From a virus, in IMG/VR virus record IMGVR_UViG_3300047558_000150, positions 1 through 43,011 of that record: a stretch of DNA of 43,011 nt; one strand, 5' to 3'. Position numbers and translations under genes: made by a program. The notes under the pieces were generated by a model. It was not told the origin of the DNA and searched no databases. It saw nothing but the letters and a program-made list of their open reading frames with translations. Positions 16,511-33,496 of this stretch are shown here, one piece after another (position 1 is the first letter of the stretch; every line of letters begins with the position of its first letter).

Positions 16511-16585
16511 TGGCACACCGAGAAGGACTCGAACCTCCTACCATGGTTTTGGAGACCATTGCTTTGCCTGTTAAGCTATCGGCAC
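16511..16585 (-). tRNA. tRNA-Trp (anticodon CCA)
   Basis: Reading the minus strand, a cloverleaf folds with D stem GCTT/AAGC, anticodon stem ATGGT/ACCAT with loop CTCCAAA (anticodon CCA), T arm GGAGG-TTCGAGT-CCTTC, and an encoded CCA end. The acceptor stem GTGCCGA/TCGGTGT has four Watson-Crick pairs but three consecutive G-U pairs at its end. This is odd and may reduce charging or stability. It lies between reductase and virion genes with no protein gene overlapping. Confidence 0.82.
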
Positions 16586-16797: not shown

Positions 16798-18723
16798 TTA
16801 TCTAATTGGACATGCACCTGTTGCACACTCATTGTCATCCAAGCCTAAATCTATGGCTTCAATGGCTGTGATTGTACGGGTGTTTGCCACCATTTCATCG
16901 TATTGTTCTTTGCTGATCTCTTCGAGTGGTGCTTGTTTAAAGCCATGCTCGTTATGCAGCAGGAATGAAAGGCTCTTGTGTGAGGTCTTGTAGTTCTTTT
17001 TCAAGTACTTCTTGATCTCATCTAATTCTTCTAATCGGTAATAAACGGTGCAACTGACACTGTTATCAGACCATACCTCTTGCAACCATTTGACTGTTTC
17101 AAGTTGTTGAATGGCTGTGACATCCTTGGCCAATACGGCATGATCAGGATGACGGAATGGGAATGACACCACAACAGTTGAGTGATCCTCAGAACCATCA
17201 AAGTTCTGTTGGTACTCTACGTGGTAGCCATGGTCCTTACAGGTTTGCACCAATGCATGGTTAGCTGAGATACGGATACGACGGATCATGTATCGAGCAT
17301 AAGCAGGATGACAGCCTGGAGTCACACCGGGAAGCAATGACAGCGTACCTGATGGTTTCACTGTAGTCAGCTTAATGCTTCGATTGAATCCATGTGCATC
17401 ACTATACTCGTTGTCGAATTGACGCAGTAATGGATAGGTCTCATCCAACCAGCTCTTCTGTTCCTCAGTTGCCTGAAGCACACCAGTCACACCAATGCCC
17501 ATACGCATATTCTCATGCACAATGGCTTCGGTACTCTTTTGGTGACACTCAAGTGCCAAGGAATGCTTGTTGATACGGTACAGCAGCTTGGCCACATCCA
17601 AGAATTCTTCCTTGCTCTCAATGTTGGGCAAGAAGATCTCAGCTAGGCAGCAGGTTTCTTTGTCAGCAAGGCTTTGTTCTGCGCAAGGATTATAGCCTTG
17701 AACGCTTTTATCAGGGTATTGTGTTTCTCCCAGGCGGCCAATCTTTCTGGACAGGTCGAGATTGATGAGTCCGTAAGGCTCTCCCTTACCTTGGTAGCCA
17801 TCCCAGAAGTAATCATGAAGCTCTCCGATGTCTTTGCAGACGACAGAGTTATTCGACATAGCTCTCCATGATGGAATATTCCCCAAGTCCCATCGTTTAG
17901 CCAATAGGTACTCAATGTCATCAGCATCTCCAATAGCAATCTGAGCACTACGGCGTACATTACCTGCAACCACCACAGCGCCAATGATGTTCATGATGTC
18001 CAAGGCATCGATAGGGCGTAACTTCTTGCCAGCCCTCTTCTCAAGGACCTTGGAGATCTCAGCAATGCCCCATACTAAATCCTCAGGGCCTGAAGCTGTC
18101 CCACCAAAACCCTTAATAGGAGCACCTTTGCTACGGATGAGCTGTGTGCTGTAACTAAAAGATTGCTTACCGCTGCTATGGGCCAAGAATGCTGCCTTCA
18201 GCGTCTTGCCTAGTAATGCAACCCAGCCTTCTCTGGTATCTGGAACAATGAACTCAGCGCTGCTGTTGTCCAATCGCTTAGGTGCCTTGAAGTCTACATT
18301 GACCATTGGCAGCTTATCGATATTCTCTTTTTGAATGTTGTAGCCAACGCCACTGCCTAACATGAGCAGGTCCATAGCCCATGTAAATGGTTCTACTGGC
18401 TTATCGACTACGGTAAAGGCACAGTTCTGGAGACTAGACAGACCAAGCTTATCGACTGTAGCTGTGCCCAATTGCCACCAGAAGCGACCTGCAACTGAGC
18501 CCTTAAGACCCAATAAGTATTTCTTTAGTCGTTCCTGTTCAATGACATCAAAGTCACAGCCTAATTGCTGATTGCTTGCTTTAATGACACGATTGACAGT
18601 ATCTTCAAATTCTTCTGTAGGACTATTAATGTCCTGTTCGTCTAAACGTCTAGCATAGGTTCTTTTGTAAGTGAGGTAGCCTACACTAGACCAAGGTGTT
18701 TTTGTTTCTGTGGTTGAATCCAT
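16798..18723 (-). CDS. Class II (adenosylcobalamin-dependent) ribonucleotide reductase
   Basis: 641 residues. It aligns by eye with monomeric B12-dependent ribonucleoside-triphosphate reductases: N-terminal KRTYAR block, SLQNCAF (first redox Cys), LMLGSGVGYNIQ, AGNVRRSAQIAIGDADD, YNPCAEQ (radical Cys, residue ~346), VKPSGTLSLLPGVTPG, and the C-terminal redox pair CATGAC near the end. It supplies deoxynucleotides for phage replication; such reductases are common in aquatic podoviruses and need host cobalamin. It has its own long leader with repeated dyads and is flanked by two near-identical hairpin repeats, suggesting an independently regulated or acquired unit. Confidence 0.92.
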   Translation of the reverse strand: MDSTTETKTPWSSVGYLTYKRTYARRLDEQDINSPTEEFEDTVNRVIKASNQQLGCDFDVIEQERLKKYLLGLKGSVAGRFWWQLGTATVDKLGLSSLQNCAFTVVDKPVEPFTWAMDLLMLGSGVGYNIQKENIDKLPMVNVDFKAPKRLDNSSAEFIVPDTREGWVALLGKTLKAAFLAHSSGKQSFSYSTQLIRSKGAPIKGFGGTASGPEDLVWGIAEISKVLEKRAGKKLRPIDALDIMNIIGAVVVAGNVRRSAQIAIGDADDIEYLLAKRWDLGNIPSWRAMSNNSVVCKDIGELHDYFWDGYQGKGEPYGLINLDLSRKIGRLGETQYPDKSVQGYNPCAEQSLADKETCCLAEIFLPNIESKEEFLDVAKLLYRINKHSLALECHQKSTEAIVHENMRMGIGVTGVLQATEEQKSWLDETYPLLRQFDNEYSDAHGFNRSIKLTTVKPSGTLSLLPGVTPGCHPAYARYMIRRIRISANHALVQTCKDHGYHVEYQQNFDGSEDHSTVVVSFPFRHPDHAVLAKDVTAIQQLETVKWLQEVWSDNSVSCTVYYRLEELDEIKKYLKKNYKTSHKSLSFLLHNEHGFKQAPLEEISKEQYDEMVANTRTITAIEAIDLGLDDNECATGACPIR

Positions 18724-24357: not shown

Positions 24358-25077
24358 TTACACTGAAAGTAGTGCTTGAAACGAAACAGGGAACAAATTG
24401 CGCATTTCTTTTGCAATCAATTCAGCCACATCACGTGACTCTTTTTGTGCATGTGGATCAAGACGAAGCTTGCACATGTCGGCAAAGGCACCAAGGGAAC
24501 CTGACCAGATCCACTCGGTCATAGTGTTCTGTGGGAGAACCATACGAGCTTGCTCGGCACAGACACCAGCCTCAAGCATATCGTTGTATAGGATCAAAGA
24601 GTGTTCCACTAAGTTGGTAGACCCATTCTCAATGGTTTGCTCAGTGAAGCCCTGCATACGTAGGAAGGTTACAGGCTCGTCAGAACTCCCCTGCTTCACA
24701 TCCGCTGCCTTAGCTCGGTAGGTCTCTGGAAAGAAGAACTCAGGCTCATCATCCACATAACGACGGCTCACTTCATTCCAAGGTAAGAACTTGTGCTTGA
24801 CCAATTGACGAGCAACGAAGATCGGTGCCTTCACTCTGAATGACAGGAACGCATGGTTGAATGGAGACTTATGATTGTGCTTGGCCAAGTACGTGATGAG
24901 CTTCTTGTCTTGCTCAGAGAGCTTGAGATCATACACGATACCATGCTGCTCAAATGCAGGATGCGGTGAACGGTCCCAATCACTTTGCTTGTCAAATGAA
25001 ACACGGGCAGCATTCACAACACTCAAGTCAGAACCCATGTAATCTAAGAGTGTAACTTCAATATTGGCTACTTTCAT
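24358..25077 (-). CDS. thyX: Flavin-dependent thymidylate synthase ThyX
   Basis: 239 residues. Visible ThyX features are SVVNAARVSFDK near the start, KHNHKSPFNHAFLSFRVKAP, and the signature region RQLVKHKFLPWNEVSRRY (residues ~88-105, variant of RHRxxSxNExSxRY), then EPEFFFPE. It methylates dUMP to dTMP using FAD and methylene-tetrahydrofolate. A second, ThyA-fold enzyme is at 32.6-33.4 kb, so the two probably make different pyrimidines. Its ATG overlaps the stop of the PLP-enzyme gene. Confidence 0.92.
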   Translation of the reverse strand: MKVANIEVTLLDYMGSDLSVVNAARVSFDKQSDWDRSPHPAFEQHGIVYDLKLSEQDKKLITYLAKHNHKSPFNHAFLSFRVKAPIFVARQLVKHKFLPWNEVSRRYVDDEPEFFFPETYRAKAADVKQGSSDEPVTFLRMQGFTEQTIENGSTNLVEHSLILYNDMLEAGVCAEQARMVLPQNTMTEWIWSGSLGAFADMCKLRLDPHAQKESRDVAELIAKEMRNLFPVSFQALLSV

Positions 25078-26000
25078 ACTCTCCCTTTTTCTAAGTCAGT
25101 CATATCGTGCCACTCTCGTTGGCTGTGGATCTTGGCCTTATCGACCATGCCCAACCGAGCCTCAATCACAGCATCAGCACCAACGTTGATGAAGATCGAT
25201 CCTGGTTTGCCTTCAGTAACAAACCTGTTCCAAGCCTTGGCATCATAGGTTGCCGTGGTCTGGAATGGAGGAGTGTCTTTAGATGGCTTCAGGAACGGTA
25301 TGGTTGCCGAGATCACATCACCACGGCCAATCTCACCATCATGGATGTTACGAGACACAGCCACAGAGACTGGGTTTGCATTAGGCCAACCAATTTGTAG
25401 ACCACGGATCATGGTGCCAGTTGAGGTAGCACAATAGAATTCCGTAGGTTCACCAATCTTCTCAGTGACACGGTTGGCAAGGTTCACGATGCCGGCGGTA
25501 ACCTCAGGCACACCGCTCAGTCCAAATGGCAGGAACTTGGCTCCATTCTTCTCAGCCCAGCGCTTGGCATAGACATTGAGAGTGGGCATGGCCGCGATCT
25601 TGATGAACCGCAGGTCAGCACCATAGGAATCCAAAACAGCCTGATGATTGCTCACCTCTTTGGATGCTGGGCAGAAGAACACGACCTTCTTATTGTACAT
25701 CTTGCCAAGGACGCAGATGGCCTCAGGTGCATGGCCAACACGAGGTGCACAATAGACTAGGGTGTCTTCTTGGATCTCACTGATCATCTTCTCGGCAGCG
25801 AAGGCCTTGAAGCCTGCTGGAGACAGATCACAACGCAAGACCCACTTGTCTTCAAAGCGCTCAAGGAGATCCTCAGGGCGTGGCAGCTTTGGGTCAAAAG
25901 AACCATACATGTTTGTGTAATAGTCCTTGGCCTCAAGCACAGTCATCCCTTGTGGAATGTCCTTATTGCTTTGATCGTTGGTGATTGAAAATAGACTCAT
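25074..26000 (-). CDS. Fold-type II PLP-dependent enzyme, possible base-modification enzyme
   Basis: 308 residues. Pattern of the tryptophan synthase-beta/cysteine synthase fold: candidate Schiff-base Lys in LSPAGFKAFAAEKM (residue ~63), a substrate loop APRVGHAPEAI, a second-domain GLSGVPEVTAGI, and the phosphate-binding STGTMIRGLQ (~192). This fold performs beta-replacement or elimination on amino acids. Phage metabolism rarely needs it, but phages with amino-acid-derived hypermodified thymine carry PLP enzymes. Its position between ThyX and the putative pyrophosphorylase-family gene favours that role (inference). Substrate unknown. Confidence 0.75.
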   Translation of the reverse strand: MSLFSITNDQSNKDIPQGMTVLEAKDYYTNMYGSFDPKLPRPEDLLERFEDKWVLRCDLSPAGFKAFAAEKMISEIQEDTLVYCAPRVGHAPEAICVLGKMYNKKVVFFCPASKEVSNHQAVLDSYGADLRFIKIAAMPTLNVYAKRWAEKNGAKFLPFGLSGVPEVTAGIVNLANRVTEKIGEPTEFYCATSTGTMIRGLQIGWPNANPVSVAVSRNIHDGEIGRGDVISATIPFLKPSKDTPPFQTTATYDAKAWNRFVTEGKPGSIFINVGADAVIEARLGMVDKAKIHSQREWHDMTDLEKGRV

Positions 26001-26306
26001 TCAATTTCCTGAAATTTGTTTTGCATATTCTACTACTTCAGCGCTGTAGCTACTCGGAAGGGATGAACCAACTCCTTGCACTGGCGAATCAGCAGAACAC
26101 ACAGCACGGGCTTTACGCTCAAGAACGTCGTAGTCCAGATCTGGCAAAATAGGTTCTGCAAGAACGTAGTAGAGATAGCGATGGGCCAACACTTGCTTCT
26201 CAAGGTCTGCTGCTTCGTCATTCTTTTTCTTACCAAATGTTAGTTCCCAATTGCTCTCAAACCCTTTACGGTCTGGGATGGGACGTGGAACTGATCCTTT
26301 ACCCAT
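26001..26306 (-). CDS. Stand-alone NAD-dependent DNA ligase domain Ia-like protein
   Basis: 101 residues from the ATG at 26306, which overlaps the previous stop (TAATG) and has AGAGGAA upstream. The second half, AHRYLYYVLAEPILPDLDYD, ERKARAV and DSPVQGVGSSLPSSYS, closely resembles domain Ia and the following linker of LigA, which binds NAD. The adenylation core with the catalytic Lys is absent, so it cannot ligate alone. It could be an NAD-binding remnant or a modulator of host ligase. Confidence 0.65.
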   Translation of the reverse strand: MGKGSVPRPIPDRKGFESNWELTFGKKKNDEAADLEKQVLAHRYLYYVLAEPILPDLDYDVLERKARAVCSADSPVQGVGSSLPSSYSAEVVEYAKQISGN

Positions 26307-26473
26307 TACATTTCCTCTTCCATTGAATCTGTGCGATAGCCACAAGTGTGGCACTCAAATTGAAATTTCACAAAGCCAACCCCTAGTTCTTCGCTATATG
26401 CACGAGACAACACTCGTAGAACTAGATCGTCACGGCAATGTGGACATGTTTGCGGTTCATCATCTTCATCCAT
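26306..26473 (-). CDS. Small zinc-ribbon protein
   Basis: 55 residues from the ATG at 26473, chosen for TAGGAGATTGT upstream. Two CxxC pairs (TCPHCRDD near residue 9 and ECHTCGYR near 44) form a zinc ribbon, followed by an acidic end SMEEEM. Possible nucleic-acid or protein binder; function unknown. Confidence 0.72.
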   Translation of the reverse strand: MDEDDEPQTCPHCRDDLVLRVLSRAYSEELGVGFVKFQFECHTCGYRTDSMEEEM

Positions 26474-26481
26474 ACAATCTC

Positions 26482-26628
26482 CTATTTCAAATTCATGTAT
26501 AAGCCAATCTGAGCCGCAGCGTACCCTATCCACATCACAGCGTTGCCCACTGCACCTTTGGAAAGCTGCAAGACACCAACAATGAAATAGCTAAGGCCTG
26601 TGGCACCAACTAAGAACTGCTCGATCAT
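26482..26628 (-). CDS. 48-residue membrane protein
   Basis: MIEQFLVGATGLSYFIVGVL, then a turn with QLSKGAVG and a second hydrophobic stretch MWIGYAAAQIGLYMNL. Probably two membrane helices with a short positive loop. Ribosome site GGAGG eight bases upstream; start overlaps the stop of the 35-residue upstream gene (ATGA). Function unknown. Confidence 0.65.
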   Translation of the reverse strand: MIEQFLVGATGLSYFIVGVLQLSKGAVGNAVMWIGYAAAQIGLYMNLK

Positions 26629-26732
26629 AAGGGAGCCTCCGGCAGCTGTTGACGTTGCTGACGCTCGTACTCATGCTTTTGTGCAGGAGTCCAAGGCTTC
26701 AACGGATTTTCTTTGGTTGGGAACGGCCACAT
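26625..26732 (-). CDS. 35-residue Pro/Gln-rich peptide
   Basis: MWPFPTKENPLKPWTPAQKH then EYERQQRQQLPEAPL. Start overlaps the previous stop (TAATG) and the end overlaps the next start (ATGA), so it is framed exactly between two tiny membrane-protein genes. Translation is likely coupled. No known family. Confidence 0.5.
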   Translation of the reverse strand: MWPFPTKENPLKPWTPAQKHEYERQQRQQLPEAPL

Positions 26733-26809
26733 TATGCTGTCATCCATACAACGAGAATGGTAATAAAGCCCAAAACATAAATGATGCGATCAGTAAGTTG
26801 GTTGTTCAT
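26732..26809 (-). CDS. 25-residue membrane peptide
   Basis: MNNQLTDRIIYVLGFITILV plus VWMTA: one membrane helix after a short polar head. GGAG lies eight bases upstream of the ATG. First of three overlapping tiny genes between the ligase-like and pyrophosphorylase-like genes. Confidence 0.5.
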   Translation of the reverse strand: MNNQLTDRIIYVLGFITILVVWMTA

Positions 26810-26907
26810 TTGAAATCTCCAAAAGAGTTGTTGCGATGGATGAATATTACCACTAACTGATCAGCACCACGATAAATGTTTTTAATCGAGCCGATATAGA
26901 GAATTTA

Positions 26908-27921
26908 TCAGGGCTGACGGCCCTTGGGATGGCTCTTGATCGCTGAGTTGTTCCATACAGCAGCACGATCTAAGTGTGCGTAGGTTTGCTCACGATTGTC
27001 TGGGATGTAGTTCTCAACGTACCGAATGTAATCACACATAACGTCTTCAAGATCGCGTGGTGCGCCACCTGTGCGGCTCACGGCTAACTTCATGACTGCA
27101 TCGTAGAACTGGTCTTTGGTGCCCTTGCCAACCTTAGTTGCAAAGAGATCCATGGCTTCCTTGGCATTCTTGCCGTAGTACATGTGGCTATCTTCATCTA
27201 CCAATTCAGGGTAGTAGTCAGCCAAATCAGCAGCTATAGCTGTGAATACAAAATGGAAAGCATTGATCCCACTCGACTTGTTAAAGGCACACATATAGTC
27301 CGCAAGCTCACGAATGGTGACTTTACGGCCAAATAGTTGTCCGTTGTTCTGTATGTAATCTACAAGTTCACGAGCAAGCATTGGGGCCAATTCACAGAGA
27401 TAGAGTTTGCCACCAGTCTTGTACCCAAAGTTTGGCTTAGGAAACGCAGGGATCTGGTTGCCAATTGAAGTGAACATAGGTCGATCATAGACCTTGATGA
27501 ATTGCTTCATCTGATCGATGCCATCCATTTCAACTAACTGAGGCAGGATCGTATTGCGGTAACCATGGTCAGACTCAAAGGAAGCACCAGAGCCTGTAAG
27601 ACGATGCAACAAGAAGACGTAGATCCAATCTTCCATCTGCCAACGATCATGGAGATCTTCAGCACGAAGGCAGACTTCACGCTGCATACCATTGAGCTTG
27701 TGGAACTTTGGTGTGTTTGTGCCGTGCCACAGGTCTTGCAGCATATTGCTGAAGCCAGCATAGCGACGTTCGACAGTATCGTAGATGTGCACTTGCTCCA
27801 TCAGATCATCATTGACTTGGCCTAGGTAGCTTTGGCCACCTAGGTTGCAGAAGTTCTGAAGGACTGTGGCCTTATCGTAGTAGGTCAGGAAATCATCAAA
27901 GTAAGGCGTAGGCTGGATCAA
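26908..27921 (-). CDS. Possible alpha-glutamyl/putrescinyl-thymine pyrophosphorylase-family protein
   Basis: 337 residues, start MIQPTPYFDDFLTYYDKATV. All-helical pattern with conserved-looking blocks DWIYVFLLHRLTGSGASFES, HGYRNTILPQLV, GYKTGGKLYLCELAPMLARE, NAFHFVFTAIAADLADYYPE and MYYGKNAKEA. These recall the helical protein family tied to alpha-glutamyl/putrescinyl-thymine formation in phages with hypermodified thymine, in which a kinase phosphorylates hydroxymethyl-uracil in DNA and this family transfers an amino acid or amine. Context (PLP enzyme, hydroxymethylase-like ThyA, kinase, deaminase) agrees. Assignment is from memory of the family pattern and needs a profile search. Confidence 0.5.
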   Translation of the reverse strand: MIQPTPYFDDFLTYYDKATVLQNFCNLGGQSYLGQVNDDLMEQVHIYDTVERRYAGFSNMLQDLWHGTNTPKFHKLNGMQREVCLRAEDLHDRWQMEDWIYVFLLHRLTGSGASFESDHGYRNTILPQLVEMDGIDQMKQFIKVYDRPMFTSIGNQIPAFPKPNFGYKTGGKLYLCELAPMLARELVDYIQNNGQLFGRKVTIRELADYMCAFNKSSGINAFHFVFTAIAADLADYYPELVDEDSHMYYGKNAKEAMDLFATKVGKGTKDQFYDAVMKLAVSRTGGAPRDLEDVMCDYIRYVENYIPDNREQTYAHLDRAAVWNNSAIKSHPKGRQP

Positions 27922-28145
27922 TTGAGTCCCCTTGCTACGATAGCGTTGGAGTAAAGTGTCACGCCAAGCCGATAAGCTTTGTATTCAGCCATTGTTGCAA
28001 ACTCTGCTGGTGACCTAGCCAACTCATACTGAAGGTCAATGCAGTCCAAGCGCTCTCGTTGAAGAGCATTACTCAAAGAGGTGTGGTGATCAGCTGCTCG
28101 AATCCACAGCGCTTCATCAATGATTTTTGCTTCAATTAAATTCAT
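27918..28145 (-). CDS. Small helical protein
   Basis: 75 residues, start MNLIEAKIIDEALWIRAADH. Entirely helical, no cysteines or membrane segment; central LQRERLDCIDLQYELAR. Its stop overlaps the start of the next gene (ATGA). Likely co-expressed with the modification-type gene; function unknown. Confidence 0.65.
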   Translation of the reverse strand: MNLIEAKIIDEALWIRAADHHTSLSNALQRERLDCIDLQYELARSPAEFATMAEYKAYRLGVTLYSNAIVARGLN

Positions 28146-28294
28146 GGTTGGAATTGGCTTTCGTCTACTGCAATGATGTATTCCTTGGAAGCCTCGATCT
28201 CATTGACCACTTCATTCAGGACTTCAAGAACGTGATTGATGTGATAGCCACTACGCAGCTTCAGCAAACAAATCTTCTTGATCTCGTTTTTCAT
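28142..28294 (-). CDS. 50-residue helical protein
   Basis: MKNEIKKICLLKLRSGYHIN then HVLEVLNEVVNEIEASKEYI. The ATG lies within the end of the SGNH-like gene (44-base overlap), with GAGAAACGAG-type purines upstream; the end overlaps the next ATG. Amphipathic helix pair, function unknown. Confidence 0.55.
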   Translation of the reverse strand: MKNEIKKICLLKLRSGYHINHVLEVLNEVVNEIEASKEYIIAVDESQFQP

Positions 28295-29288
28295 GTTGTC
28301 TTGTAGGTTTGTCATGCAACTTCCAAAGATAGAACTCAGGGCTAATGTGCACCGAGCGGGGTTTTTCCATTACAGCGAAGTCTAATTCGCCTTGATCGTT
28401 CTTGAATGACTGAGGCCACTTGATGAAGTTGAAGCCATACTCACGGCAACCAACCTCAAGCTCATGAGCAAAGATACGGCGAAGGTTGTTTCGCTCAGAC
28501 CATGTGCCATAGAACGGTGTACCTTTGTACCAACCAGTCTTGGGTAGTACTCGGCTCTCATTTTCGATTGGCAGAGGCTCAACCACATCGATGGCATCAA
28601 GTTTGTACTTGGTCGCCATAGTCACTAGCTGATGGATGTACTCAGAAGCCAGTACCATAGTGTCCACGATAGGCGATGGGCTACGCATCAAATGATGACG
28701 AATGTCGATGTTGCCAAAGTAGGTCCGAAGGTACCGAACATCTGGATGAAGACTCAGCTGCTGATCGATCAGTCCAGACTTCAAGGCTCCATAAAGAGTT
28801 TTACCATCATTACGGCTGATAGAGGCAGAAGGCACCCAAGCGCTAACAGAATGACTATCCCCAATGACCAGTGTTGACGTAGGGATTGAAGCCATCGTGA
28901 CCGTTTGAGCCTGTCTGCACACAGCATCAATACGTGCGAAATCAAGACTTTTGTAGCGAGCAGAAGCCCCATCGCACAAACGAGACTTAGCCCTAGTGCC
29001 ATATAGAGGACAGTCAATGTCCAAGCTATAGAGTCTTCCAGTGAAGTTTTGAATGAGCTCCAAGCGAGCTGCAAGTTTGTCATAACTCTCCTCAGTTTTC
29101 AGGAAGTAATTGAGGCCTTTGGAATCCTCATTGAACTCCATGCCGTGGTCAAAGTAGACCTCAGGTGCACTGGTGTAGTCGTTAGCGTAGGCCATCTTCT
29201 GATTCAGCTTAGTGGACCAGAGATGGCCCCATCCTGCTCGGTGTGAGTAGATGCGCTCTGAGTGAGGCGTGATGGGGCTGACGATCAT
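28251..29288 (-). CDS. SGNH-like hydrolase-fold protein
   Basis: 345 residues. The block TLVIGDSHSVSAW (residues ~138-150) is the GDSx nucleophile motif of the SGNH superfamily; YFGNIDIRHHLM resembles the Gly/Asn block III region (GxND), and the C-terminal VHISPEFYLWKLHD could give the catalytic His. The N-terminal ~130 residues are a separate domain. SGNH enzymes are esterases or acyltransferases; inside this gene set it might add or remove an acyl group on a modified base, or act on a host surface polymer. Substrate unknown. Confidence 0.55.
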   Translation of the reverse strand: MIVSPITPHSERIYSHRAGWGHLWSTKLNQKMAYANDYTSAPEVYFDHGMEFNEDSKGLNYFLKTEESYDKLAARLELIQNFTGRLYSLDIDCPLYGTRAKSRLCDGASARYKSLDFARIDAVCRQAQTVTMASIPTSTLVIGDSHSVSAWVPSASISRNDGKTLYGALKSGLIDQQLSLHPDVRYLRTYFGNIDIRHHLMRSPSPIVDTMVLASEYIHQLVTMATKYKLDAIDVVEPLPIENESRVLPKTGWYKGTPFYGTWSERNNLRRIFAHELEVGCREYGFNFIKWPQSFKNDQGELDFAVMEKPRSVHISPEFYLWKLHDKPTRQHEKRDQEDLFAEAA

Positions 29289-29289
29289 C

Positions 29290-29433
29290 TTAGGCTGCCG
29301 TGAAGTATGTGATCCAAAGCAATCGCAAGATGCCTAGGTCAATGATGAAAGCCTCACAGCCATCATCTTCACCACGAGCCCACTCAAAACCTACGTTGAA
29401 ACCAGTAATCCAGTAGTGTTGAAATTCAGTCAT
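29290..29433 (-). CDS. 47-residue hypothetical protein
   Basis: MTEFQHYWITGFNVGFEWAR then GEDDGCEAFIIDLGILRLLW. AAGGATTGAT upstream of the ATG. An aromatic, partly hydrophobic peptide; the C-terminal half could be membrane associated. Function unknown. Confidence 0.55.
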   Translation of the reverse strand: MTEFQHYWITGFNVGFEWARGEDDGCEAFIIDLGILRLLWITYFTAA

Positions 29434-29434
29434 A

Positions 29435-29593
29435 TCAATCCTTAGAAGCAATAAACAAAGCACCGGCCAAAACGAAGATGACCATAAACAAATTTACGAT
29501 AGATGGTGCCAATACCAGCCACCAAGACCAATCAATGAAGTCAAACAGACGCGCTGCTACAAAGATCAGGGTCAAAATATTCAAAAATCCCAT
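29435..29593 (-). CDS. 52-residue membrane protein
   Basis: Started at the ATG at 29593 (MGFLNILTLIFVAARLFDFI) because AAGGATTGAACTC precedes it. Two membrane helices separated by DWSWW, with the second APSIVNLFMVIFVLAGALFI and a charged end ASKD. Holin-like in shape but far from the lysis genes; could also be an antitoxin or exclusion peptide. Function unknown. Confidence 0.6.
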   Translation of the reverse strand: MGFLNILTLIFVAARLFDFIDWSWWLVLAPSIVNLFMVIFVLAGALFIASKD

Positions 29594-29598
29594 GAGTT

Positions 29599-29757
29599 CA
29601 ATCCTTAATAGATTTAATATCGCTGACAATTTCTTCAACAGCTTCTGCTACTGGTTCCAAGACAGCATTTGCAAGTTCTACCACAGCCTCAACAGGCGCA
29701 GCAGCAATCTTGACTGTGTTTTCTACTACGTCAAAAAGTGATCCAAACAATCCCATA
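29599..29757 (-). CDS. 52-residue amphipathic/acidic protein
   Basis: MGLFGSLFDVVENTVKIAAA then PVEAVVELANAVLEPVAEAV. AAAAGGAGAAACT gives a strong ribosome site. Val/Ala/Glu-rich continuous helix with an N-terminal hydrophobic patch, suggesting membrane-surface association. It precedes the membrane protein by six bases and may act with it. Confidence 0.6.
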
Positions 29758-29767
29758 GTTTCTCCTT

Positions 29768-31378
29768 TTAGAATGGGTCTACAGCCATCTCTTCAGTTAG
29801 ACGGCCTGTGTGTCGATTGTAATGCAGTTCTCCAGCAACTCCTGTGTCGCCAGTGAAGCGGTTTTTAAGTACTCGTACTGTCGTTTTGTTAGGTGTATCG
29901 GACTGCTGATCTCGTTCAAGACCAATAACAATATCTGACAATTGCGCAATAGAGTGGCTTCCTCGGAGTTGAGAAAGCGAGGTCGTTGCCCCTTCTTCGT
30001 GTCCTTTATTTCCATCTGGCCTTTTCAAGTGAGAAACTAAAATCATGCCCACGCCAGTTTCTTCAACCAACGTACGCAGCATTGTCATTGCGTTGTCTAA
30101 AAGCCTGCGCTCATCACCGTCACCAAGGCCCGACACGACAATAGACAAGTGATCGAGCACAATCCAACTACAGCCCAAACCTTTGGCCATATACCGGACT
30201 CGTTCAACCAAGTTCGAGACATCAGTACTACCGAAATGGTCATATAGATATAAGCGACCAGACCCGCACACGCTATCAAAAGCATTTCTAAGTTCATCGT
30301 CATTCACTCCTTCTTTTGAAATATGAATTGGCTTGTTCAATTCGATGCCCATCATGCCAAGCAATGTGCGCTTAGGGTTCTCCTCAAGCATCAACATTCC
30401 TACGGTTTCTTGATGAGCAAGAAGATGGTGTGCAATCTCACGTACAAAAGCGCTTTTACCAATGCCTGATCCTGCAGTGACCGTGATCAGTTCACCACGA
30501 CGAAGGCCTTTGGTTTTCTCTGTGAGACCAAGGTAAGGATAGGGAACTGAATCAGTCTCTTCCTCTTTGGACACAGAGTCCCAAAGGTCGCCAGCACTCA
30601 CAATGCCATCAGGACGGTATTGCTTGGCTTGCCATACTGCTGAGACGAGTTCTTGCACTCGGCCTTGCAACAGCATGTCGTTAGGATCTTTGAGTGGTAG
30701 GTGAGCAACCTTGGCCTTACCAGGGGATAACAGTGCAGCACACTCTGATGCTGCCTTCTGGCCTGGTTCATCCATATCGAACATGAACACGACAGTCTCA
30801 AAACCTGAGAAGAAGTCGAGGTTCTGTTGGATCGAACGCTTAGCGCCTTGGGCTCCGTTAGGTACACTCACAACAGGCCACTTGTTGCCAAGAGCCTGAC
30901 TCACTGAAAGGCAATCAATCTCACCCTCAGTGACCACAAGCATTTTGCTAGATGTAAAAAGCTGTTGGCCAAATAGTGATAGCTTAGCGCCTTCACCAAT
31001 GATCTTGAACTTTTTGTCCTTATCCCGAATCTTACATGCCACGACAGCACCATCGCTGTAGTATGGAGCAAAGTGAACCTTGCGACCCTCATACTCACCA
31101 ATGCGATAGCCATAACGACGGCACGTATCTTCAGAGATACCGCGGGCCTTAAGCCCGATAACTTCAGCTTCATTGTAACCAGTCACACTACTCGGTTTCT
31201 TGTTGCTTGTTGCTGCTTGTTCCATGTCTGATGATTTCTCGTAGTGTCCACAGCCAAAGCAGTGGCCATGCCCATCTGAGTACCGAGCTAGATTGTCTCG
31301 GCTACCACATGCAGGGCACGGCTCACGCCTGATGAACGTGGACTCCACATTTTCTGAGGAATTCAATACCACTCCCAT
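29768..31378 (-). CDS. Primase-helicase (T7 gp4-like)
   Basis: 536 residues from the ATG at 31378 (start uncertain; the frame is open to 31507). Zinc-binding primase domain CPACGS...CFGCG (residues ~20-42), TOPRIM-like MLVVTEGEIDCLSVSQAL and VFMFDMDEPGQKA, then the RecA-type helicase with Walker A TAGSGIGKSAFVRE (~298), Walker B WIVLDHLSIV and LRGSHSIAQLSDIVIGLERD. It ends in Phe after acidic residues (MAVDPF), like T7 gp4, whose terminal Phe contacts the polymerase. It unwinds DNA and makes primers at the fork. Confidence 0.93.
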   Translation of the reverse strand: MGVVLNSSENVESTFIRREPCPACGSRDNLARYSDGHGHCFGCGHYEKSSDMEQAATSNKKPSSVTGYNEAEVIGLKARGISEDTCRRYGYRIGEYEGRKVHFAPYYSDGAVVACKIRDKDKKFKIIGEGAKLSLFGQQLFTSSKMLVVTEGEIDCLSVSQALGNKWPVVSVPNGAQGAKRSIQQNLDFFSGFETVVFMFDMDEPGQKAASECAALLSPGKAKVAHLPLKDPNDMLLQGRVQELVSAVWQAKQYRPDGIVSAGDLWDSVSKEEETDSVPYPYLGLTEKTKGLRRGELITVTAGSGIGKSAFVREIAHHLLAHQETVGMLMLEENPKRTLLGMMGIELNKPIHISKEGVNDDELRNAFDSVCGSGRLYLYDHFGSTDVSNLVERVRYMAKGLGCSWIVLDHLSIVVSGLGDGDERRLLDNAMTMLRTLVEETGVGMILVSHLKRPDGNKGHEEGATTSLSQLRGSHSIAQLSDIVIGLERDQQSDTPNKTTVRVLKNRFTGDTGVAGELHYNRHTGRLTEEMAVDPF

Positions 31379-31883
31379 CTCTGTATGAGTCTCGATAGAA
31401 AACCTGCTTGATGCCAGCCTGATAGATAGACTTGGCACATTCAAAGCAGGGCGATAGGGTGAGGACCAACGTGCAGCCTTCAGTTGCCAATCCGTTGCGT
31501 GCAGCAAACATCATGGCATTCATCTCAGCGTGCAGGACTTCCTTCTTGGTTTCTAGGAAGGCTATATGACCACTAGGCCACGAAAGCTCTTCCTCACAGT
31601 TGTTGTCCCAGCCAGAAGGCATCCCGTTGTAACCAACTGAGATGACCCTGTTGTCTTTGACAATGACTGCACCAACCTTGGCTCTACGCGAGTGGCTCAA
31701 AGCTGCGTATGCTTCCGCTGCTTTCAAATGGGCATTCAGCAAAGAGGGCTTTAAGTCGGCCGTGGTTGCCTGAGTGATCAGGTCCAGTCCAACCGGGTGG
31801 TTTAATAAGGTCGAATCCCCCAGAAGACTCTCGTCCAGGTTTGACTCCACGCTCTTTGGCCATATTGGCTTTGTGAACTTCAT
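31323..31883 (-). CDS. dCMP deaminase
   Basis: The catalytic domain is clear: VGAVIVKDNRVISVGYNGMP, zinc ligands in HAEMNAMMF and SPCFECAKSIYQAG. It converts dCMP to dUMP, substrate for ThyX or a hydroxymethylase. The start is uncertain: the ATG at 31883 gives 186 residues but makes a ~200-base overlap with MazG in another frame. Recognisable homology starts near 31742 (LLNAHLKAAEAYAALSHSRR), where a TTG could be the real start. The distal end overlaps the primase-helicase start by about 56 bases. Confidence 0.85.
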   Translation of the reverse strand: MKFTKPIWPKSVESNLDESLLGDSTLLNHPVGLDLITQATTADLKPSLLNAHLKAAEAYAALSHSRRAKVGAVIVKDNRVISVGYNGMPSGWDNNCEEELSWPSGHIAFLETKKEVLHAEMNAMMFAARNGLATEGCTLVLTLSPCFECAKSIYQAGIKQVFYRDSYRDGSGIEFLRKCGVHVHQA

Positions 31884-32121
31884 TCCATGCTTTCTGAATA
31901 TCAACGCCACAAATGGCGAGTGTGCCTAGGGCAACCACGGTCAAATCAACGAGAGCATCAACGGTACCTTCAGCGTCACGATCACGGACAGCTAAGAGGT
32001 ACTCATCAAACTCTTCTTCAAGCAGCTTTCCACGGAAGTAGAGCTTGGCAATATCAAGCTTCTCTTTGTCGAAACCGTACTTAGTTGTGAGTTGTTCGAT
32101 GTCCTCGATTAGAGTACTCAT
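31684..32121 (-). CDS. MazG-like nucleoside triphosphate pyrophosphohydrolase
   Basis: 145 residues from the ATG at 32121. Helical MazG core with metal-binding acids in KLLEEEFDEYLLAV and TVDALVDLTVVALGTLAI, then VHKANMAKERGVKPGRE and FDLIKPPGWTGPDHSGNHG, a tail typical of phage all-alpha NTP pyrophosphatases. It may hydrolyse unwanted dNTPs (for example to exclude a canonical or non-canonical nucleotide) or ppGpp. Next to hydroxymethylase, kinase and deaminase, it fits pool control for a modified base. Confidence 0.82.
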   Translation of the reverse strand: MSTLIEDIEQLTTKYGFDKEKLDIAKLYFRGKLLEEEFDEYLLAVRDRDAEGTVDALVDLTVVALGTLAICGVDIQKAWNEVHKANMAKERGVKPGRESSGGFDLIKPPGWTGPDHSGNHGRLKALFAECPFESSGSIRSFEPLA

Positions 32122-32605
32122 GTGCAATAGCCTTTACGTATGAATTTAATTCGTATTTGTTGAAATCGTACACCAGCCACTTACCCCATTTGTTTGATTG
32201 GAGAAGGGAATCGTACAGTTGTGCCACTAGTGAAATGTCATCGAACATCTCTTCACGCTCTGCAGCGTTCTTCTTGTGATTCTCGATTGCATTGTCATTG
32301 CGGCAGTAAATGAAAATTGGATTGTACTCGTTCTGAGCCATCTCCAACATTCGGTTCACATCATAAGCAGGGCCACCACGGAAAGCCGTGCCATAGACCT
32401 GCTCAGAGAGTGCCCATCGATCAATGATGGTTGGGCAGCCAGCATTCTCATAGAAGTAGGCAGACGTAATGATGGCAGCATGGTACTGCCGAATGTCCCA
32501 CTGCTTATCAAAGCCAGCATGCAAGACCATGCCATTGAGTTCTTTAGCTAGAGCATTAGCCAAGGTAGTTTTGCCTGTGCCATCGGCACCTTCAAGAATA
32601 ATCAT
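32081..32605 (-). CDS. P-loop nucleotide/nucleoside kinase (thymidylate-kinase-like)
   Basis: 174 residues from the ATG at 32605 (MIILEGADGTGKTTLANALA); an in-frame TTG two codons upstream is less likely. Walker A GADGTGKTT at residues 6-14, a DRW motif in TIIDRWALSEQVYG and the following FRGGPAYDV. It is related to dTMP kinases and to the kinases that act on hydroxymethyl-dU in phages with modified thymine. It overlaps the ThyA-family gene by 14 bases, indicating tight co-expression. Specificity cannot be read from the sequence. Confidence 0.8.
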   Translation of the reverse strand: MIILEGADGTGKTTLANALAKELNGMVLHAGFDKQWDIRQYHAAIITSAYFYENAGCPTIIDRWALSEQVYGTAFRGGPAYDVNRMLEMAQNEYNPIFIYCRNDNAIENHKKNAAEREEMFDDISLVAQLYDSLLQSNKWGKWLVYDFNKYELNSYVKAIAHEYSNRGHRTTHN

Positions 32606-33362
32606 CTGCAAGCATTTTCAAAGTATGGACAAAGAAGCGTGGTGAGGTTGCTTCAGCCAACAGGATAGTCCAATCATCTTGAACATCTCGGTGCTGTGCA
32701 TCAGGCATCACATCGTGCAACCACTCATCTACTTTGTCGAAATGGGTTTCATACAAATGCAATGAACCAACGTGAACATGGAGAAAACCAAGCTCAACAT
32801 TGATACCGCGTAGGATCAACAAGGATCGCACCAGGGCCGCCACAGCACTGAATGTGAATACATCATAGGTGAAACCAAGGACCACATCCTGGGACCTCAT
32901 ATTGGTCACCATGTGCAGCTTATGGTCACGAATGAAGAACTGCATGTTGATTGTGCATGGAATGTCCTTGCTTGATGCAGGACGCTCACGCCAAATGTTA
33001 ATGATGGCTTGGCGACTATCTCGGTCTTTCGACAGGGTGTCAGCCGCGTAGGCAACTTGTTCTGCTACCTTTACGCCATATGCGCCGTTCAAAAAGACGC
33101 CATCATCACTGAAATCGGCATATCGCTTCATGTATGGTGTGAGATCAGCAAGCCAATTAGAGCCACCACAGATCCATGCAGCTTCAGCAAACATAAATGC
33201 GTGATTGACTTTACGTGAGGCAAGACTGATGATGGGCTTGTTCATATCCACTCGGTATGAAGAGCCAATCAGTTCCTTAACAGGGATGCCACGAGGACGG
33301 ACCTCAGAACCACCAGCAGTGATGTCGATCAGTAACTCTTTCCAAACTGAATCTGTATTCAT
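32592..33362 (-). CDS. ThyA-family enzyme, probable dCMP/dUMP hydroxymethylase or synthase
   Basis: 256 residues from the ATG at 33362 with AAGGAG upstream. ThyA-fold active-site elements: catalytic Cys in DIPCTINMQF (residue ~134), MRSQDVVLGFTYD (~155-167) and VGSLHLYETH. The position equal to Asn177 of E. coli ThyA, which selects uracil, is Asp here (FTYD). T4 dCMP hydroxymethylase also has Asp at this site, so dCMP hydroxymethylation is plausible. As ThyX is present, a role in making hydroxymethyl-pyrimidine rather than dTMP is inferred. It may still be a synthase. Confidence 0.8.
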   Translation of the reverse strand: MNTDSVWKELLIDITAGGSEVRPRGIPVKELIGSSYRVDMNKPIISLASRKVNHAFMFAEAAWICGGSNWLADLTPYMKRYADFSDDGVFLNGAYGVKVAEQVAYAADTLSKDRDSRQAIINIWRERPASSKDIPCTINMQFFIRDHKLHMVTNMRSQDVVLGFTYDVFTFSAVAALVRSLLILRGINVELGFLHVHVGSLHLYETHFDKVDEWLHDVMPDAQHRDVQDDWTILLAEATSPRFFVHTLKMLADDYS

Positions 33363-33496
33363 ATACTCCTTAACAAAGAAAAGATAGGGTCGGATCGTCA
33401 ATCTAGTCACATCACTTTAGAGTTCATGATGCAACATCAGATGAGTAACTAGCTCATCGTCCTGATGCGGACTTCTACCGCAAACCCCGGAAAACA
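33363..33496. other. Short intergenic with hairpins
   Basis: On the minus strand, GATGAG-CTAGTTA-CTCATC and GCGG-TAGAAGT-CCGC can form small stems between the HTH gene and the ThyA-family gene. No T-tract follows, so processing or translation control is more likely than termination. Confidence 0.35.

Follow-up and report, generated by a model that had tools for sequence, protein, structure and literature searches.

The virus record IMGVR_UViG_3300047558_000150 was analyzed over its full length of 43,011 bases (the window), with emphasis on the interval 24358-33362, which encodes a candidate system for the hypermodification of DNA bases. All of the genes discussed here are on the minus strand. 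Three of them would form the core of the system: a pyridoxal-5'-phosphate (PLP) enzyme of fold type II (25074-26000), which is a relative of gp52 from Pseudomonas phage M6; a helical protein with a helix-hairpin-helix (HhH) fold (26908-27921), in the structural group of the alpha-glutamyl/putrescinyl-thymine pyrophosphorylase (aGPT-Pplase), amino acid:DNA transferase (ADDT) and HMUDK_hel proteins; and the partner of the HhH protein, an SGNH-fold enzyme (28251-29288). Also in this region were genes of nucleotide metabolism. These included a ThyA-fold hydroxymethylase (32592-33410; PF00303, 2.3e-22), a P-loop kinase (32081-32611; PF02223 (Thymidylate_kin), 28.5 bits with a cut-off of 27; phrog_761, 1e-19), and a MazG-like all-alpha NTP pyrophosphohydrolase (31684-32127; PF01503, 8e-10; DR2231 in the Protein Data Bank (PDB), 6e-5). 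A dCMP deaminase, which converts dCMP to dUMP, was encoded at 31323-31910 (PF00383, 2.1e-22; phrog_174, 6.7e-53); its start codon is uncertain and the open reading frame (ORF) is probably overlong. ThyX, the flavin-dependent thymidylate synthase that converts dUMP to dTMP (24358-25077; PF02511, 5.6e-46), overlapped the PLP gene by 4 nucleotides. Every gene listed in the original prediction, which was made from the sequence alone, was present near its stated position.

Target base of the hydroxymethylase

The sequence of the ThyA-fold enzyme suggests that it is a dCMP-type hydroxymethylase. When a profile of this enzyme and its relatives was searched against the PDB, the closest structure was the dCMP hydroxymethylase of phage T4 (1b49, 3.4e-48), followed by the CMP hydroxymethylase MilA (5jnh, 1.2e-44) and by thymidylate synthases (from 1.1e-33). 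Asp183, within 'RSQDVVLGFTYDVF', aligned with 'FRND' of the T4 enzyme (gp42), at the position of Asn177 in the E. coli thymidylate synthase and Asp179 in T4, and the hydroxymethylase-type Asp named in the original prediction is present. In the E. coli enzyme Asn177 selects uracil and Asp selects cytosine, according to the work of Graves 1992, Hardy and Nalivaika 1992, and Liu and Santi 1992 as it is cited in PMC8670742. All of the aligned cassette homologs had Asp at this position (38/38), and 107 distinct sequences had it. Asn was found there only in controls, namely the dUMP hydroxymethylases of M6 and SPO1 and the ordinary thymidylate synthases of Aeromonas phage 44RR2.8t (44RR) and contig L257; one further apparent case (L054) was a false regular-expression match, and alignment showed Asp. 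The catalytic Cys152 was conserved in 38/38 homologs and the residue after it was Thr in 37/38 (Thr153 in the window), as it is in T4.

A similar pattern has been described for environmental phages with modified cytosine. In the MetaGPA study, positions 147 and 177 were the two that separated the enzymes of these phages, the modified set had Asp177, and it co-occurred with PRA-PH (MazG) and dCMP deaminase domains (PMC8670742). The 5-hydroxymethylcytosine carbamoyltransferase phages from that study resemble the present phage in having an Asp177 ThyA-fold enzyme, MazG-type and deaminase neighbors, and a dedicated enzyme that decorates 5-hydroxymethylcytosine, but the decorator is a carbamoyltransferase rather than the HhH, SGNH and PLP set found here. 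Stenotrophomonas phage AXL3 shares the Asp-type hydroxymethylase, the P-loop kinase, MazG, dCMP deaminase and ThyX, and differs in that neither the PLP family nor the HMUDK_hel and HMUDK kinase families were matched in it. AXL3 DNA withstands 35 restriction enzymes whose sites contain G or C; only TasI and Tru1I, which have A/T-only sites, cut it (PMC7504290).

No match to the 5-hydroxymethyldeoxyuridine (5-hmdU) DNA kinase family (PF18748) or its helical partner (PF18723) was found in the 43,011-base record, while identical searches found both in M6. The P-loop kinase is therefore not of the HMUDK_HMUD1 family, although a divergent role is possible for it. The kinase also adjoins the hydroxymethylase in Pelagibacter phage HTVC119P. 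The original prediction drew on thymine pathways, and thymine as the target was not supported. Hydroxymethylcytosine is indicated instead by the Asp, by the Thr that follows the catalytic Cys, by the lack of 5-hmdU kinase families in the record, by the presence of ThyX and by the AXL3 restriction pattern. ThyX fits a cytosine target because dTMP would still be needed.

The PLP, HhH and SGNH proteins

The PLP enzyme matched phrog_7093 (5.1e-55), which is named 'threonine dehydratase' in PHROGs. M6 gp52 also matched this family, and alignment of the PLP family with gp52 by hhalign gave 97.3% (E 2.8e-11), with a C-terminal signature in common. The candidate Schiff-base Lys65 was found in 40 of 40 relatives, and the phosphate-binding STG loop in 39 of 40. 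These sequence features support the earlier assignment to the fold-type II PLP enzymes. In M6, gp52 is encoded between gp51 (ADDT) and gp53, and in the M6-related phage SN1 a PLP enzyme is part of a cassette with a pyrimidine hydroxymethylase, aGPT-Pplase1, a kinase, a radical SAM protein and aGPT-Pplase2 (PMC9476957). The enzyme of the window is predicted to tailor an amino acid linked to DNA. In Erythrobacter and Microcystis phages, relatives that are 27-31% identical (L011:15001-15678 and L012:12001-12645) are annotated as 'DNA modification methylase', and the Microcystis relative adjoins ParB and sulfiredoxin genes.

The HhH protein could be placed by structure, whereas profile searches with Pfam, PHROGs, NCBIfam and hhalign found no family for it. 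Its AlphaFold2 model, from an alignment of 45 relatives, was all-helical, with a mean confidence (pLDDT) of 90.3. A Foldseek search of viral structures (BFVD) gave as top matches outside the family an amino acid:DNA transferase domain protein, clade 1 aGPT-Pplases and HMUDK_hel proteins. The Foldseek probability was 1.00 to proteins named ADDT, to aGPT-Pplase1 proteins and to one HMUDK_hel protein, and 0.89 to the HMUDK_hel protein of phiW-14; the full-length TM score outside the direct family was 0.43-0.50. Among solved structures the matches were HhH 8-oxoguanine (AGOG) glycosylases, with Z up to 8.6 over 213 residues; a Z of 8 can be reached by chance with helical models, but here the leading matches were nearly all from one superfamily and the named viral matches all from the same functional group. 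The model therefore places the protein in the HhH base-handling superfamily, and the resemblance to the aGPT family suggested in the original prediction stands at the level of fold. Alignment of the HhH family with the families of M6 gp51 and gp55, both of which are called aGPT-Pplase (PMC9476957), found no link by hhalign, which says little because the control alignment of gp51 with gp55 was also negative. One direct relative is named 'Amino acid:DNA transferase domain-containing' in UniProt, so the likely activity of the family has already been guessed by annotation. From its modeled fold, the protein is predicted to flip and modify hydroxymethylcytosine.

The SGNH-like character of the third protein was confirmed by its AlphaFold2 model (pLDDT 89.7), which has an SGNH hydrolase fold. 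The protein matched phrog_13881 (6.1e-57), a family listed in PHROGs as of unknown function. The PDB matches of the model were SGNH esterases and O-acetyltransferases, with Z of 14.9-12.4 to 50 SGNH entries. The catalytic Ser145 (in GDS) and His314 were present in 43 of 43 relatives; of the oxyanion residues, Gly192 was conserved in 43/43 and Asn193 in 35/43, with Ser in the remainder. No Pfam family matched the SGNH or the PLP protein, and searches against the sequences of solved structures with HhH, SGNH and PLP profiles gave nothing useful. ORF233c of 44RR joins an HMUDK_hel-like domain (Pfam 0.0036 with the whole protein and 0.0009 with the C-terminal part) in one fusion protein to an SGNH domain that has 34% identity with that of the window; the profile built here (A10) includes the 44RR sequence, so that its own score for 44RR is circular and the Pfam match was used instead. 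This phage also has a T4-type dCMP hydroxymethylase, but a PLP relative was not found in it. The HMUDK_hel domain normally lies beside a P-loop kinase, and its occurrence here with SGNH suggests that the SGNH protein takes the role that a 5-hmdU DNA kinase has in thymine systems.

The modified base in M6 is 5-(2-aminoethyl)deoxyuridine. The M6 cassette has in common with the present one a ThyA-fold hydroxymethylase, an HhH-type aGPT/ADDT protein, the homologous PLP enzyme, dCMP deaminase and a nucleotide kinase, and amino-acid chemistry after replication is expected in both. It differs in the Asn of its hydroxymethylase (dUMP), in the HMUDK kinase gp54, the HMUDK_hel protein gp55 and the radical-SAM-type gp53, and in having neither an SGNH protein nor a relative of the HhH family of the window. 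The gp54 gene of M6 (NC_007809.1; L017:26686-27249) is annotated as a terminase small subunit and belongs to the 5-hmdU DNA kinase family (PF18748, 7.7e-18).

Conserved neighborhood and genome context

A first scan with the HhH protein found nine relatives, and an alignment-based scan with its family found 180 viral contigs. Among the non-redundant viral loci, 23 had at least 4.5 kb of flank on each side of the HhH gene; the SGNH family was present in 23/23 of these, the PLP family in 22/23, and the hydroxymethylase in 19/23. A recurrent gene order was, for example, MazG, hydroxymethylase, dCMP deaminase, HhH protein, PLP enzyme and SGNH, at times with ThyX. The scan with the hydroxymethylase found a single close relative. 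Reverse scans of IMG/VR found SGNH relatives on at least 578 contigs and PLP relatives on at least 597, many of them from large phages. Twenty-four of the SGNH-anchored loci had 5 kb present on each side: 21 encoded the HhH family, and the other three an HMUDK_hel-like protein instead (Pfam 3e-13 in L184 and 3e-7 in L188, above the cut-off; 6e-4 in L213, below it). In other words, every locus of this set with sufficient flank had an HhH-type base-handling partner beside the SGNH gene. As a control, 67 loci around M6-type proteins were searched, and neither the SGNH family nor the family of 26908-27921 was found in any (0/67). Since the conservation is reciprocal and the control loci were negative, the linkage is above chance, and the proposal that these genes act as a set is supported by a cassette conserved across diverse phages. 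The original prediction had called the full set, with an SGNH protein and a class II reductase in a small temperate phage, apparently undescribed. No description of the cassette was found in the literature searched, but the set is not peculiar to such a phage.

Several variants of the neighborhood were seen. L089 (6716-7705) and 32 other loci encode a second helical protein, about 329 amino acids long, whose gene usually adjoins the HhH gene; its relation to the HhH protein (hhalign 61%) and ADDT (E 0.12) is weak, and it belongs to no known family. A homolog of the C5-cytosine methylases (PF00145, 1.2e-15) directly follows the SGNH gene in nine cassettes (L031:7574-8782 and eight others); none was found in the present record or in 14 other records searched. 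The three cassettes that combine SGNH with an HMUDK_hel-like protein and have no PLP enzyme (L184:6771-10597, L188:6379-14914 and L213:6399-15015) also encode a myo-inositol-1-phosphate synthase (PF01658; 7.5e-22 in L188 and 5.5e-23 in L184), and those in L188 and L213 add an FkbM-type methyltransferase, a C5-methylase homolog and a nucleoside diphosphate-sugar epimerase. Perhaps these specify an inositol-bearing cytosine. In Aeromonas phage 25 (L171:2767-6038) the SGNH gene comes after one for a UDP-galactopyranose mutase (PF03275, 5e-54) and another possibly for a glycosyltransferase, an arrangement that suggests a galactofuranose-related variant.

The region in the window is rich in nucleotide and modification genes, as predicted, but it is not a pure island because a primase-helicase gene (29768-31507) and small unrelated ORFs interrupt it. 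An ORF of 117 amino acids at 26001-26354 matched NAD-dependent DNA ligase over the N-terminal part of the ligase only (PF22745, 8e-5, below the cut-off) and appears to be a fragment or an isolated domain. The class II reductase that had been listed with the set is real, but is encoded outside the interval: it is an adenosylcobalamin-dependent ribonucleoside-triphosphate reductase (16798-18723; TIGR02505, 359 bits with a cut-off of 340), which would contribute to deoxynucleotide supply. A tRNA-Trp (CCA) gene at 16511-16585 adjoins it. The phage is T7-like, as had been proposed, with a single-subunit RNA polymerase (835 amino acids, about 32-34% identical to autographivirus polymerases) and replication genes akin to those of HTVC119P. 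Among the latter is an integrase relative, and the phage is possibly temperate. Its terminase is from another lineage (top match Roseobacter phage CRP-7, 38%), indicating that the genome is mosaic. A DNA search of the whole region against named phages gave no match.

Proposed mechanism and alternatives

With the gene identities, folds, substrate-determining residues and conserved partnership established, the set is best explained, by a wide margin, as serving to hypermodify DNA bases. We propose, with a probability of roughly 0.7, a two-stage system in which 5-hydroxymethylcytosine replaces cytosine and the HhH, SGNH and PLP proteins then add and trim an amino-acid-derived group. In the first stage, the ThyA-fold enzyme would convert dCMP to 5-hydroxymethyl-dCMP, which the P-loop kinase, as a putative hydroxymethyl-dCMP kinase, would help to raise to the triphosphate. 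The MazG-like enzyme may clear dCTP (and dUTP), and dCMP deaminase, ThyX and the class II reductase would supply dTTP and the remaining precursors, allowing the T7-like polymerase to build 5-hydroxymethylcytosine DNA in the manner of T4. In the second stage, on the DNA, the HhH protein would recognize, flip and hold the modified base. The SGNH enzyme would act on the hydroxymethyl group by acyl or ester chemistry, whether activation, acyl addition or hydrolysis of an intermediate, and this step is the least certain part of the proposed chemistry. An amino acid would become attached, and the PLP enzyme would act on it, for example by decarboxylation to leave an amine-bearing group. What we infer is that all of these steps act together and that their substrate is DNA, as well as the nature of the attached group and of the reaction of the SGNH enzyme. 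For comparison, phiW-14 has a pyrophosphoryl ester as its activated intermediate (PMC5977210); for M6 and ViI, a 5-hmdU DNA kinase has been proposed (PMC6449724). The T4 pathway has in common an Asp-type dCMP hydroxymethylase, dCMP deaminase, thymidylate synthase, a kinase, dCTP clearing (as proposed here) and later modification on the DNA. It differs in that T4 adds glucose with glucosyltransferases, whereas the interval here has HhH, SGNH and PLP proteins and no recognized glycosyltransferase.

Several observations weigh against this proposal. A search of 50,697 phage records gave no match to the HhH protein, and no cultured phage with the full set was found; among 45 relatives searched at E 1, and in a six-frame search, neither the ADDT (PF18724) nor the HMUDK_hel (PF18723) family of Pfam was matched. 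The kinase was recognized in few cassette phages only, and the link of SGNH to hydroxymethylcytosine where PLP is missing comes only from the Aeromonas group and a few others. Some cassette contigs (G013, G015, G027 and others), which may be incomplete, had no hydroxymethylase. The first three of these (loci L034, L041 and L036) encode HhH, SGNH and PLP proteins and the second helical protein, and no hydroxymethylase was found across 45-93 kb. A search of the hydroxymethylase-less contigs for TET/JBP enzymes gave no match, yet no control matched either, so that their absence is not established.

Thymine hypermodification as in M6, ViI and phiW-14, with the ThyA-fold enzyme making 5-hydroxymethyl-dUMP, the P-loop protein acting as a DNA kinase, the HhH protein attaching an amino acid and the PLP enzyme trimming it, is unlikely. 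It would explain the homology of the PLP enzyme to gp52, the structural group that the HhH protein shares with ADDT and HMUDK_hel, and the adjacency of kinase and hydroxymethylase, but the Asp rule would have to fail throughout a family that has Asp where the M6 and SPO1 enzymes have Asn. Neither PF18748 nor PF18723 is in the record, SGNH is missing from all of the M6-type loci, ThyX would go on producing dTMP, and AXL3, with the same nucleotide genes, has restriction resistance specific to G/C sites (PMC7504290).

It is also quite improbable that the DNA contains 5-hydroxymethylcytosine only and that the HhH, SGNH and PLP proteins serve other ends, such as host takeover, counter-defence, or sugar or lipid chemistry. 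The three genes are tightly and reciprocally linked to one another and to Asp-type hydroxymethylases, the HhH fold handles bases, an SGNH-HMUDK_hel fusion exists, and the PLP enzyme is kin to a thymidine-hypermodification enzyme; on the other side are AXL3 and HTVC119P, which carry the nucleotide module without the cassette, the many other roles known for SGNH proteins, and the position of the SGNH gene beside UDP-galactopyranose mutase in Aeromonas phage 25. Least probable is that the PLP and SGNH proteins are ordinary auxiliary metabolic enzymes (a threonine dehydratase and a lipase or esterase) next to nucleotide metabolism by chance. The PHROGs label of the PLP family and the missing Pfam matches of both proteins would agree with this, but the PLP family is that of the M6 cassette and the catalytic residues are intact in all relatives. 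A chance neighborhood is nearly excluded because the adjacency is conserved across non-redundant loci, in tens of phage lineages. The idea that the cassette has decayed in the present phage was dropped because its catalytic residues are intact.

The literature searched describes thymidine hypermodification; glycosylation, pentosylation and carbamoylation of hydroxymethylcytosine; and carboxymethylcytosine-glycine (PMC12783734). The CmoA/CmoX/CmoY system that makes the last of these likewise hypermodifies cytosine, with an amino-acid conjugate as the end product, but it uses carboxy-S-adenosylmethionine (Cx-SAM), a C5-methyltransferase homolog, which was not found in the present record, and an ATP-dependent ligase. 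A cytosine cassette of HhH, SGNH and PLP proteins was not found described in that literature. As a tentative extension, which we think possible and would not press, the SGNH and HhH pair may replace the DNA kinase, activate or acylate 5-hydroxymethylcytosine in DNA, and with the PLP enzyme build amino-acid-derived cytosines, while other donor modules (inositol-phosphate synthase, UDP-galactofuranose enzymes) join the same core elsewhere, giving a class of cytosine modifications.

If the proposed two-stage system is correct, amino-acid-type hypermodification, which is known for thymine, would extend to cytosine, and its chemistry would rest on an SGNH enzyme, a type of protein not known to act on DNA bases. 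Because the cassette is present in hundreds of environmental phage contigs, such modified bases would be widespread in the environment and have so far escaped notice. The modification would probably shield phage DNA from bacterial defences, and the enzymes would be new tools for labelling 5-hydroxymethylcytosine and would offer new clues to how phages escape restriction and CRISPR.

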